Below, piece by piece: positions 1-47,108 of a DNA stretch of 48,149 nucleotides (the stretch's first letter is position 1; every line of letters begins with the position of its first letter). Made by a program: the position numbers and the translations under genes. Source of the DNA: Candidatus Bathyarchaeota archaeon A05DMB-3 (GTDB lineage Archaea; Thermoproteota; Bathyarchaeia; Bathyarchaeales; Bathycorpusculaceae). The notes beneath the pieces are model-generated. The model had not been told where the DNA came from and did not search any database. It worked only from the letters and a program-made list of their open reading frames with translations. The stretch is from the NCBI GenBank assembly GCA_019685555.1, contig JABFQN010000010.1:1-48149 (forward strand). Reading direction: 5' to 3'.

Positions 1-647
1 TCATCTATTGAAACATCAATGTTGGTTTCAAGATGTCCAAACATTTTATGATAAACGAAAACTTTACCAGCCCCTGGAATGCTAACGTCCTCCAGCCACG
101 GATCAGCAAGGAAACCGTCAATAAAGCCATGCCCTATTTTTTCTCTTAAAAAGTGGTAGAGTACGGCGCCTTCATCCTTATTTTTGGGAATTTTAACCAT
201 TTTCCTCTTTACAGCTTGTCTGAAAAGCGAAGCTAACACGTTCTCTCTTTGTTCCTTGTATTCCTTGTCTCCAATAAGCCTGGCAACAGCAGCCTCAATA
301 ATATCTAAAAGTTGACGGTCTGGTTTTTCCGGTTCTATAAGGTTATATTTTCCAATCTCTCCTCCAACGTCGATATGGGCGTATATTCCTAAGCCTAAAG
401 GATACAAGAGGTTAGTGCCTTTTTCATATTCTTCTAAATCAAGATTCAAAACATATTTGGGCTTCTCTGGCAATGTGTCCAAATAATCCTTCAAGTAAGG
501 GTGCTCTGTCAAGGCTTCCTCTAATGTTTCGCAAACCGTTCTTTTAAAAGGCCAAACATCTTCTTCCGTTTCTTCTTCCTTCTTCTTAAACAGTGAGATT
601 TTGAAACTTGAAAGCTTTGGCAAACTTAGTTTCAGTTTTTCTGACAT
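1..647 (-). CDS. flaI: Archaellum motor ATPase FlaI (ArlI), N-terminal part, cut by window edge
   Basis: FlaI is the cytoplasmic hexameric ATPase that drives archaellum assembly and rotation. Translating the minus strand from ATG at 645-647 gives an uninterrupted frame of 215 codons to the window edge. The last visible part reads DPWLEDVSIPGAG, then KVFVYHKMFG, the conserved N-terminal domain of type II/IV secretion and archaellum ATPases; the Walker motifs lie outside the window. A strong ribosome binding site (AGGAGG, about 655-660) precedes the ATG and overlaps the stop codon of flaH, so the two genes are translationally linked. FlaJ is expected beyond the left edge. A type IV pilus ATPase is the alternative, but flaH and the FlaF/G genes beside it argue for the archaellum. 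Confidence 0.9.
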   Translation of the reverse strand, partial: MSEKLKLSLPKLSSFKISLFKKKEEETEEDVWPFKRTVCETLEEALTEHPYLKDYLDTLPEKPKYVLNLDLEEYEKGTNLLYPLGLGIYAHIDVGGEIGKYNLIEPEKPDRQLLDIIEAAVARLIGDKEYKEQRENVLASLFRQAVKRKMVKIPKNKDEGAVLYHFLREKIGHGFIDGFLADPWLEDVSIPGAGKVFVYHKMFGHLETNIDVSID

Positions 648-1359: not shown

Positions 1360-1883
1360 TGTGTTCTAACAGCCTCCCCCTTTGCGGTAACTCCATAATG
1401 CGTAACAAAAACGACGGAAACCAAACCGTTTAGGGGAATTTCCGGAGCCCCGCTTGGAATACTTAAAAAGATGTGAGCTTCTTCCCCAGCGTCTATATAG
1501 CTGTGGTTGTCCGGCGTGAAAACATAGTTTGTCCCTGAAACCCTAACCTCTAAAATGTCATAGTCTTCGATGGGATAGGACACCCAAAAAGAATTGTTTC
1601 CATAAGAGAGGATTATGGTGTTCCACTTGTACTCCGACTGGTTCTCAAAGAAAATAACCTTTGACCCTATGTTTTCTATGGTTATGTTGCATGAGGTGGC
1701 ATTAATGGGATGCACTTCCAACTGTAAGGCTATGTCAAGTTTCTCTCTTTCGCGGTTAACATACTCCTCAGCAGTGTACAATATCTCTTTCAAACTTTGG
1801 AAAACGGTTATTAAAAACGTGGAGGATAGTGCAAGCAAAACTATTAGAATGATGGATGAAGTTATCGTTACTGAAAAACCCAT
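1356..1883 (-). CDS. Archaellum stator-type protein, FlaF/FlaG family (flaH-proximal copy)
   Basis: FlaF and FlaG are pseudoperiplasmic beta-sandwich proteins that tie the archaellum motor to the S-layer. This 175-residue product has one N-terminal hydrophobic helix (residues about 5-28), a short charged linker (EEYVNREREKL), and a beta-rich external domain with N-glycosylation-type sequons. The gene begins at ATG 1881-1883, nine bases after the preceding gene, and overlaps flaH by four bases. Next to flaH, crenarchaeal operons carry FlaF and euryarchaeal operons carry FlaG. The sequence alone does not let me choose, so no symbol is given. Confidence 0.82.
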   Translation of the reverse strand: MGFSVTITSSIILIVLLALSSTFLITVFQSLKEILYTAEEYVNREREKLDIALQLEVHPINATSCNITIENIGSKVIFFENQSEYKWNTIILSYGNNSFWVSYPIEDYDILEVRVSGTNYVFTPDNHSYIDAGEEAHIFLSIPSGAPEIPLNGLVSVVFVTHYGVTAKGEAVRTQ

Positions 1884-1892
1884 TACACCACC

Positions 1893-2393
1893 TCAAGATG
1901 GGGGTGCTGGGAAGAGGTAGCTGCTGCCTATCCCCTTTGAAGGAACTATTTTGGCTTCGAAGATCACTCCTTCCACGTTGCTAGATGGATAAGCCTTTAT
2001 GACTGCTGTTTCCCGCGGTTCCCAAGTATTATCTCCATCTGCGTCTGATAGGCTAAACTGTCCGCTTCCAGCACTTGCTGTTGCGTTATAGGTAAACAGT
2101 TGAGCTTTCCCGTATTCTCCCACATAAACATCTAGGAAAGTGAAATCGGTAAGCGGTAGGTATCCAACGTTTTTAGCGTATATGATAAAATGGGGTGGGC
2201 TCGTGGTGCTGTTTATGGTGGCATAAACTATCTCCAACTGCAAACTAACAATTCTTTTATAATCATTAACATTTTGCGCCAATTCGTTTTGAACAAGGTT
2301 TCCAGTGTAAAATGCGTAAACAGAAAAAGCGCTTGCTAGGCATACTGAAGCTATAACCATTATTATGTGGGATAAAGTTAAAGAAAAGCCCAT
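1893..2393 (-). CDS. Archaellum stator-type protein, FlaG/FlaF family (distal copy)
   Basis: This second FlaF/FlaG-type protein (166 residues) has the same plan as its neighbour: N-terminal MGFSLTLSHIIM, a single membrane helix to about residue 28, then a beta-rich external domain. A DADGDNTWEP stretch near residues 117-126 is typical of acidic surface loops and could bind metal. Its ATG shares one base with the stop codon of the upstream FlaC/D/E-like gene (TAATG at 2391-2395), so translation is coupled. It probably partners the following FlaF/G protein in a stator complex. Whether it is FlaF or FlaG depends on a family search. Confidence 0.82.
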   Translation of the reverse strand: MGFSLTLSHIIMVIASVCLASAFSVYAFYTGNLVQNELAQNVNDYKRIVSLQLEIVYATINSTTSPPHFIIYAKNVGYLPLTDFTFLDVYVGEYGKAQLFTYNATASAGSGQFSLSDADGDNTWEPRETAVIKAYPSSNVEGVIFEAKIVPSKGIGSSYLFPAPPS

Positions 2394-3163
2394 TACACAG
2401 CCCTTTTCGCTATTCTAGCCTTTGCAGCTCTTCCTTCAGCTATGGCAATAAGCCGCTTCACATCTTCTACGCCTACTCGCACACCTGAAATTACAGAAGC
2501 CTTATACATGTTCAGCAGCAGCTTGCTCTTCGTAAGACCCTTCGACTTGGCTTTTTCAGCTGCAACTGCCAAAGAATAAACCTGTTCGTTGACTCCTTCA
2601 GGCATGAAACCCAAGCGTTCATAGGATTGTGAAATCTGCTTTATGTCTTCTGGAGTGAAACCCAAATCAAGGAGAGACCAAACCCAGTCTAGGTACACAG
2701 CCCCAGATGGCGGCAGCTCAGCCTTTAAGCGAGGCTCTTCCCTTATTTCTTCTAGTGGCTTTGCTTTTGCTTCTCTAGTTTCTAAAGTTTCTTTCGGCAA
2801 CGGCGCAAGCATCTCTATTGACGGCTTTGGAACACCTTCCTCTGCCTTCTCCTCAGGCTTTTCTTCGGGTTTCCCTAAAACCAGCGACTTAACTCCTGAA
2901 GGAAGCCTTTCACTGTTTAGCTTTTTCAAGTCTTTTTCACTTGAGATGACCCGCAAGAGGTTGAAGGGATTTTCAATTTCGCTAACTGCTGACCGAATAT
3001 CAATTATGGATCTTTTAAGCTCAGCTACAGCCGTGTTCAGCTCTTCGGAAAGCTTTTCAACATTATACTTCAGCTTTTCGATTTCCTGTTTTTCTGGTTT
3101 TTCTTCGCTTTTCGACTCTGGCGTTTCAGAGGCTTCTTTTTTACTATTATCTGTTTTTGCCAT
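2393..3163 (-). CDS. Archaellum accessory protein, FlaC/FlaD/FlaE-like
   Basis: FlaC/D/E proteins form the cytosolic ring that links the archaellum motor to chemotaxis through CheF. The 256-residue product starts with a charged Lys/Glu-rich tail, then a coiled coil (residues about 25-70), then the NPFN-type segment of FlaC-like proteins. A low-complexity Pro/Glu/Lys linker follows (about 97-150), and then a helical C-terminal domain with LDWVWSLLDLGF, resembling the FlaD/E domain. So FlaC-like and FlaD/E-like parts appear joined in one protein. It is the first gene of the operon. The start ATG (3161-3163) follows AAGGACG about 11 bases upstream. The assignment rests on remembered motifs and context. 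Confidence 0.75.
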   Translation of the reverse strand: MAKTDNSKKEASETPESKSEEKPEKQEIEKLKYNVEKLSEELNTAVAELKRSIIDIRSAVSEIENPFNLLRVISSEKDLKKLNSERLPSGVKSLVLGKPEEKPEEKAEEGVPKPSIEMLAPLPKETLETREAKAKPLEEIREEPRLKAELPPSGAVYLDWVWSLLDLGFTPEDIKQISQSYERLGFMPEGVNEQVYSLAVAAEKAKSKGLTKSKLLLNMYKASVISGVRVGVEDVKRLIAIAEGRAAKARIAKRAV

Positions 3164-18348: not shown

Positions 18349-18385
18349 CTTGTACCGTTTATTTAACAACTAATTATAACATCGC

Positions 18386-18398
18386 AAAGTTTTTAAGC
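18386..18398 (+). promoter_or_regulatory. TATA box of the candidate RNA
   Basis: AAAGTTTTTAAGC lies 25-30 bases before the GC-rich segment that begins at about 18421, the normal archaeal distance from TATA element to transcription start. Confidence 0.45.
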
Positions 18399-18420
18399 AA
18401 ATGGACGCTTTAGTCTATTT

Positions 18421-18495
18421 TGCGAGTAAGTCCCGCCCGAGGCTATGATGCCCGTGGACTCGGGATGGGAGCGATAGGGCGGGGTTCGCTTTTTT
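18421..18495 (+). ncRNA. Candidate structured non-coding RNA of about 70-75 nt
   Basis: A GC-rich block stands out of AT-rich surroundings between two convergent genes and has no reading frame. GCGA (18422-18425) pairs with TCGC (18486-18489), and CCCGCCC (18432-18438) pairs with GGGCGGG (18477-18483). A competing hairpin CCCGAG/CTCGGG (18436-18441 with 18459-18464) uses three of the same C residues. A TATA box lies at the right distance upstream, and six T residues (18490-18495) end the block. It does not match tRNA, SRP RNA, RNase P or a box C/D RNA, and it lacks a 3' ACA. It could also be an elaborate terminator for elp3. Confidence 0.5.
18490..18495 (+). terminator. Oligo-T stretch after the candidate RNA
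   Basis: Six consecutive T residues follow the TCGC stem end; T-runs are the usual archaeal termination signal. Confidence 0.4.
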
Positions 18496-18496
18496 A

Positions 18497-19156
18497 CTAT
18501 TTCCAGAGATAGTTGAAATACTCCACTTTATCCTTAATTATTCTATAATAGCAGTTGTTGTTATGCTCATACCTATGGAAGCAGGCGCCCGCAAGAAAAT
18601 CCACAGCTTGCAGACAATGTTCTCTCTGAGAGTTTTCATGATGAATCTCTATGTTGCTTAATTTTATTTGTTCCGTTTGTTTCCATTGAATGGTCATAAG
18701 CCATGAAGCTTTGTTAATTGCATAATGATTGAATGCCTCTTTACTAATGCGTCTGAGGCTTTTATCAACAACTATGTGTAGCTTGTCATTCGGCGTCATT
18801 TTGGGAAGAATATTTTTCATTATAGTATCAACTATGACAAAGTTATAAAGTACGGCAGTTTTTCCTTTCAGCTCTGGTTTTACCTTTGCTTTTTCTAATA
18901 CAATAAAACCAATTTTCACATTGCACTTGGAGATTTTTTCTAGAACTGTTCGCCTTACAGAGTCTCTGGAATTTGAATATTTTAATTCATTGCATCCTCT
19001 GGCGTATTCATTTCTTTCGTGCAATTTCTTCAGCAAGCGCTTCATAATTTTTGCTGCTTCAAATGGATAGTCCAAAATCAGGTAGGCAACTATAAAAAAC
19101 CGCGACGATTTTGAAGAAAATCCTAAATCGCCACTTTCATCTATGTAAACATACAT
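18497..19156 (-). CDS. DUF3800 family protein (predicted RNase H-like fold)
   Basis: The 219-residue product opens with MYVYIDESGDLGF, the DESGD motif that marks DUF3800 proteins, and has the later acidic strand LHIVVDKSLRR and the C-terminal QAVDFLAGA. These acidic positions are thought to form a metal site like that of RNase H-type nucleases; the function is undetermined, and homologues are often found in defence islands or beside mobile elements. Here it sits alone between the candidate RNA and gatD. The ATG at 19154-19156 has no clear ribosome binding site. It is AT-richer than its neighbours, which may hint at acquisition. Confidence 0.82.
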   Translation of the reverse strand: MYVYIDESGDLGFSSKSSRFFIVAYLILDYPFEAAKIMKRLLKKLHERNEYARGCNELKYSNSRDSVRRTVLEKISKCNVKIGFIVLEKAKVKPELKGKTAVLYNFVIVDTIMKNILPKMTPNDKLHIVVDKSLRRISKEAFNHYAINKASWLMTIQWKQTEQIKLSNIEIHHENSQREHCLQAVDFLAGACFHRYEHNNNCYYRIIKDKVEYFNYLWK

Positions 19157-19269
19157 TTAATATCTTTTTCCAGTATCCTTATGCTACTTAATAATCATTT
19201 TGAGTTCATTTTTACGATAAAGTTAAAGACCAAAAAAGCCTTTTCTCAATTAAAGTTGGAGAAATGAAA

Positions 19270-46974: not shown

Positions 46975-47108
46975 TCGGGCGGGCAGGATTTGAACCTGCG
47001 ACACTCCGGTTTCCGCTTTGCGCATGTGCGCTTGGTAGGCTGAAAGGGTACACCCACCATGGGCAGGTGTCTACAGCCGGAAGCTCTACCAAGCTGAGCT
47101 ACCGCCCG
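46975..47108 (-). tRNA. tRNA-Tyr (GUA) with a 60-nt intron
   Basis: On the minus strand the acceptor CGGGCGG pairs with CCGCCCG, so the tRNA starts with C1:G72, the archaeal tyrosine identity pair. The anticodon stem UCCGG/CCGGA closes the loop CUGUAG-A, anticodon GUA. The intron (47011-47070) is inserted after position 37, the common archaeal place, and holds ACACC.../GGGUGU and GCGC-ACAU-GCGC hairpins. T arm GCAGG-UUCAAAU-CCUGC; discriminator A73; no encoded CCA. The spliced RNA is 74 nt. Confidence 0.95.

Follow-up and report, generated by a model that had tools for sequence, protein, structure and literature searches.

A DUF3800-X RNA and its convergent DUF3800 gene in a Bathyarchaeota genome, a possible RNA–protein control module

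The RNA gene and its surroundings

The window analyzed here, 48,149 nucleotides from Candidatus Bathyarchaeota archaeon A05DMB-3, carries between elp3 and gatD a GC-rich block and, on the opposite strand, a gene for a DUF3800 protein (Table 1). An Rfam search, which the earlier note had suggested, matched a segment of approximately 72 nt in this block to DUF3800-X RNA (RF02984) over positions 1–73 of the 73-position model, with a score of 66.1 bits (E = 1.9e-12, cmscan) against the family gathering score of 38.2 bits. The RNA is present in a single copy in this genome, and its end lies 5 nt from the stop codon of the convergent DUF3800 gene. The coverage of the model, the three stems P1, P2, and P3, and the DUF3800 neighbor are all alike between the window RNA and the family, and nothing essential differs. 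The earlier note had taken the block for a candidate new RNA gene that matches no archaeal RNA class known to its author. This reading as something new is incorrect, because the block is a full-length member of RF02984, and that family takes its name from precisely the kind of gene that adjoins it here. The RNA is an ordinary DUF3800-X member of a family that is already known and whose function is unsolved. The DUF3800 motifs were reportedly first described in a survey by Weinberg from 2017.

Other parts of that first description held up well. No open reading frame of at least 60 residues crosses the block, and the TATA box, the four-base closing stem, the seven-base stem, and the T-run all lie where they had been placed. 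Of 200 dinucleotide-shuffled versions of the block, 199 fold less stably than its own single strand (z = -2.8). The window does allow the alternative hairpin CCCGAG/CTCGGG to form, but this hairpin is not conserved in relatives. We rejected it as a switch, as it shows zero compensatory changes and one of its pairs is kept in only 3 of 19 relatives. Elsewhere in the window, Rfam finds a tRNA (52.9 bits) that ARAGORN missed; because it spans 134 nt in Rfam and yet escaped ARAGORN, it probably contains an intron.

Table 1. Positions of the features in the window and, where a locus label is given, in relatives
Feature	Position	Strand	Basis or remark
TATA-like box TTTTTAA	18390-18396	+	-30 to -24 from RNA start; sequence
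DUF3800-X RNA (RF02984)	18420-18491	+	cmscan; covariation in relatives
P1 5' strand GCGA	18422-18425	+	pairs with 18486-18489; 98.7% of cells paired, 19 sequences
P2 5' strand CCCGCCC	18432-18438	+	pairs with 18477-18483; 94% of cells paired including flanking U-G pair
P3 5' strand CCCG	18451-18454	+	pairs with 18461-18464; 94.7% paired, 2 pairs with both-side changes
P3 3' strand CGGG	18461-18464	+	covariation
P2 3' strand GGGCGGG	18477-18483	+	covariation
P1 3' strand TCGC	18486-18489	+	covariation
T-run, likely RNA transcription end	18490-18495	+	sequence; termination inferred
DUF3800 protein gene, 219 aa	18497-19156	-	PF12686, 54 bits; convergent partner
RNA + DUF3800 cassette, approximate ends	18349-19215		between elp3 stop and gatD promoter
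tRNA	46975-47108	-	Rfam
DUF3800-VI RNAs (L035/L041/L053)	2140-2197	-	upstream in sense of other DUF3800 genes
DUF3800-VI RNA (L045)	1408-1458	+	upstream in sense of other DUF3800 genes
DUF3800-VI RNA (L039)	1403-1459	+	upstream in sense of other DUF3800 genes
5'-extended DUF3800-X variant (L005)	1477-1572	+
5'-extended DUF3800-X variant (L012)	174-271	-
5'-extended DUF3800-X variant (L027)	753-848	+
5'-extended DUF3800-X variant (L030)	1501-1595	-
Tandem DUF3800-X-like copies (L121)	263-334 and 500-573	-	second copy weak, 29.6 bits
DUF3800-X RNA and gatD close together (L092)	2121-3092	+	genome of another class

Conservation of the RNA in relatives

Of the 257 class genomes searched, 29 contain RF02984, 26 of them above the cut-off; one of the 29 matches (L029) lies inside an open reading frame and was discarded as a chance match. 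Members from outside the class came from 398 genomes drawn across the phylum, a set that has genomes in common with the class set. Two weak matches without DUF3800 nearby (L098 and L100) were set aside. The main covariation alignment comprised 19 sequences, leaving out those with large insertions. In this alignment, 95.3% of the cells of P1, P2, and P3 are standard pairs, as opposed to 36–45% when the strands are slid against each other, and 17 changes on both sides of a pair were counted versus 5.5 in shuffles. These changes fall on seven pairs, four of them in P2, and the wider alignment of 30 sequences shows both-side changes at 10 of the 12 predicted pairs. This covariation supports the fold of P1, P2, and P3. 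The earlier note had named absence of the block or its stem pairs in related genomes as evidence against it; homologs are instead present and their stems covary.

A TATA-like hexamer at -33 to -26 (around -29) precedes the RNA in 11 of 15 relatives with the paired gene (shuffle mean 1.8) and in 8 of 10 unpaired relatives (shuffle mean 1.1), an indirect sign that the RNA is probably transcribed from its own promoter. The idea of an independent small structured RNA gene is thus supported by both the covariation and the conserved TATA-like box. The region of the T-run is T-rich in relatives and its sequence is not identical. Variation within the family is limited to the stems, the P3 loop, and the internal loops. 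Members in other classes have an extra hairpin between P1 and P2, after a conserved GAGUAA, which the window clade lacks. In these out-of-class members, the internal loop on the P2 side, GAA opposite AGUA, presumably resembles the sarcin-ricin (bulged-G) motif, which we take to be retained only partly in the window clade.

Two variations on the family were also noticed. Four loci (L005, L012, L027, and L030) carry a variant with a 5' end longer by approximately 24 nt, a possible extra hairpin (e.g., CCGAG/CUUGG or CCAAG/CUUGG), a TATA-like box displaced to -50 to -55, and no DUF3800 gene nearby. Two of them stand head-to-head with the same gene, which looks by eye like an aldehyde ferredoxin oxidoreductase gene, and a model of the variant found few more clear members in the genus. 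At L121, two DUF3800-X-like copies lie in tandem, and all that this genome has of DUF3800 is a fragment.

The convergent gene, the cassette, and RNAs without a gene

A profile search of the 257 class genomes recovered 12 full-length X-type DUF3800 genes, and the 3' end of every one of them is met by the RNA on the other strand. The 13th such gene (L049) is divergent and was detected through its protein; it is accompanied by a weak RNA match whose location and strand are those expected (E = 7e-4 in R1) but whose score of 28.9 bits is below the Rfam cut-off. The distance from the RNA end to the stop codon ranges from -13 to +9 nt at 17 of 17 measured loci with an adjacent gene, which take in other classes of the phylum and include two genes that are contig-cut or apparently frameshifted. 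The distances among the RNAs correlate with those among the proteins (r = 0.80 for 10 pairs and 0.83 for 15 pairs; permutation P = 1e-4) with species distance not partialled out, and such a correlation would also be expected from shared vertical descent. The X-type proteins cluster with full support, apart from the proteins linked to DUF3800-VI RNA; this grouping is a weak test because the set was chosen with an X-based profile.

Alignment of 15 X-type proteins revealed near-invariant acidic residues (D6/E7, E57, D131, and D186), and H173 is likewise common to them. A single-sequence structure prediction reached a pLDDT of 46, too poor a model to place these carboxylates on a fold or to give independent support for one, and a comparison by sequence with solved structures returned no match. 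The RNase H fold and an association with noncoding RNA have been reported for DUF3800 (PMC10910872), and DUF3800 proteins accompany Cas12a2 and VI-F/V-A2 CRISPR loci (PMC10910872, PMC12669027). A viral or phage origin was rejected, as no relatives of the protein were found in the viral contigs and phage records searched; relatives on plasmids amount to three plasmids only, with proteins approximately 25% identical. A defense annotation was likewise rejected, given that PADLOC returned nothing beyond noise (E = 0.035) and NCBIfam gave zero matches.

In the window and in one relative (G135, L003), the pair sits between elp3 and the gatD promoter. In four close relatives whose elp3 is 81–85% identical (L058, L061, L062, and L063), elp3 adjoins gatD with neither the RNA nor DUF3800 in between, and filled and several empty sites share AATAAAGTTAAAGA, the promoter motif of gatD, or a motif very similar to it. 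The pair is present or absent jointly at this site, and therefore the RNA and the gene constitute one unit of approximately 0.86 kb. Another genome (G121) carries the pair at a different site, far from elp3. The RNA and the gene are inherited and moved as one two-gene cassette. A DUF3800-X RNA has gatD for a near neighbor in a genome of another class as well (L092), which may reflect chance or a favored site.

The 29 class genomes comprise 12 with intact pairs, the one with the chance match, and approximately 16 in which the RNA has no intact gene next to it. At five loci (L008, L013, L017, L022, and L025), a remnant of the 3' part of DUF3800 survives beside the RNA, two loci are cut by a contig end (L018 and L031), and others, including L015, L023, L024, and L026, have no visible DUF3800 remnant. 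Sensitive searches of the genomes with such orphan RNAs found no full-length X-type gene elsewhere. The orphans that were scored retain 14–16 of the 16 pairs, and the promoter is mostly kept. The asymmetry, in which genes never occur without the RNA while the RNA often occurs without a gene, fits an antitoxin-like pattern; it can also be explained by size, as 72 nt decay more slowly than 660 nt. The neighbors of three orphans were also noticed: an AbiEii-type gene (Pfam, 90.8 bits; L024) and a gene with a nucleotidyltransferase domain (L015), both toxin–antitoxin-like, and, upstream of the RNA, an apparent CRISPR-type repeat array (NPCFVGLAFWT repeated in translation) with a gene for a PIN-like protein (L023).

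Possible function and comparison with known systems

We propose, with a probability of roughly 55%, that the pair is a ribonucleoprotein module whose RNA, acting in trans, binds and controls a DUF3800 protein with a predicted RNase H-like fold, toxin–antitoxin-like restraint being the leading version. The RNA would be made from its own archaeal promoter, end at the T-run just before the convergent DUF3800 stop codon, and fold as a P1-P2-P3 rod with conserved internal loops. It would then bind the DUF3800 protein, for which an RNase H-like fold is predicted, and control its activity, perhaps by restraining a potentially harmful nuclease in a toxin–antitoxin-like and possibly defensive arrangement. 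The family membership, the covarying fold, the conserved promoter, the obligate convergent pairing, the distance correlation, and the empty sites were computed here; to these we add by inference the binding of the RNA to the protein, the nuclease activity, the toxicity, and the direction of control.

Type III toxin–antitoxin systems such as ToxIN likewise combine a structured RNA with a protein, and the ToxIN RNA is reported to hold a nuclease. ToxI, however, consists of tandem repeats co-transcribed upstream of toxN, whereas the window locus has one RNA copy on the opposite strand, 3' of the gene, with a promoter of its own. The DUF3800 and ToxIN proteins show no sign of relatedness, and toxic endoribonuclease activity neutralized by direct RNA binding is a putative property of DUF3800. 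In a tentative elaboration, the RNA would control an RNase H-fold nuclease in the manner of an antitoxin, within a toxin–antitoxin or abortive-defense module, and, unlike in type III, a single convergent, separately transcribed RNA would bind the protein; the orphans would then have been kept after decay of the gene, and the 5'-extended orphans perhaps repurposed.

DUF3800 genes of this archaeal class are also associated with another structured RNA, DUF3800-VI (RF02915). It differs in structure and in its position upstream of the gene in the sense direction, Rfam types it as cis-regulatory, and the proteins linked to it are not part of the X group. Since the RNA is 3' and convergent in one RNA class and upstream in the other, a simple cis element is disfavored. 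The convergent ends do touch or overlap by a few nucleotides, as they would if the RNA were an antisense or 3'-end element acting on the DUF3800 mRNA through transcription collision, antisense pairing, or 3' end formation. We nevertheless consider this improbable: what is conserved is not a stretch complementary to the coding sequence but a plus-strand RNA that folds through covarying pairs, keeps its loops, and has a separate promoter, and many RNAs persist without the gene. Still less probable is a role of the RNA in mobility of the cassette, as a transposon-end or transposase-linked RNA, instead of in the cellular activity of the protein. The cassette-free elp3–gatD site of close relatives, the varied neighbors elsewhere, which include an integrase (L006) and a weak integrase-core match (L089), and the several copies in some genomes (g5) would suit such a role, but DUF3800 is not a known transposase, the window's genome has a single copy, and no terminal repeats or target-site duplication were seen by eye when filled and empty elp3–gatD sites were compared.

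A more serious competitor, though one that we regard as doubtful, is an RNA that serves as an activating cofactor or scaffold of the DUF3800 nuclease rather than as its inhibitor, making it an RNA-dependent enzyme, possibly of defense. The co-occurrence and the distance correlation fit activation equally well, and the near-invariant acidic residues and the company of DUF3800 with the above CRISPR loci agree with it. The accessory DUF3800 of Cas12a2 and VI-F loci shares the domain and the reported RNase H fold (PMC10910872, PMC12669027); unlike at those loci, the window DUF3800 stands alone with its own RNA and has no Cas effector beside it. The RNA contains no guide-length hypervariable segment of the OMEGA/TnpB kind, and its flanks are the promoter and the end of the gene; any guide would have to lie in a putative 3' extension. 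This lack of a variable guide-like segment speaks against activation, as do the approximately 16 genomes that keep the RNA, its promoter, and its pairs without an intact gene, where an activator would be unneeded. We rate restraint as somewhat more likely than activation.

The DUF3800-X RNA of the window is in itself no discovery. We found no established function for the RNA classes associated with DUF3800, and for this reason the locus is worth an experiment. With its relatives it offers clean test material in the form of an obligate convergent pair, empty sites, and orphan RNAs. In three genomes (G050, G051, and G052), an X pair coexists with a DUF3800 gene that is preceded, on the same strand, by a DUF3800-VI RNA; having two such distinct pairs of RNA and DUF3800 gene in one genome adds to this test material.
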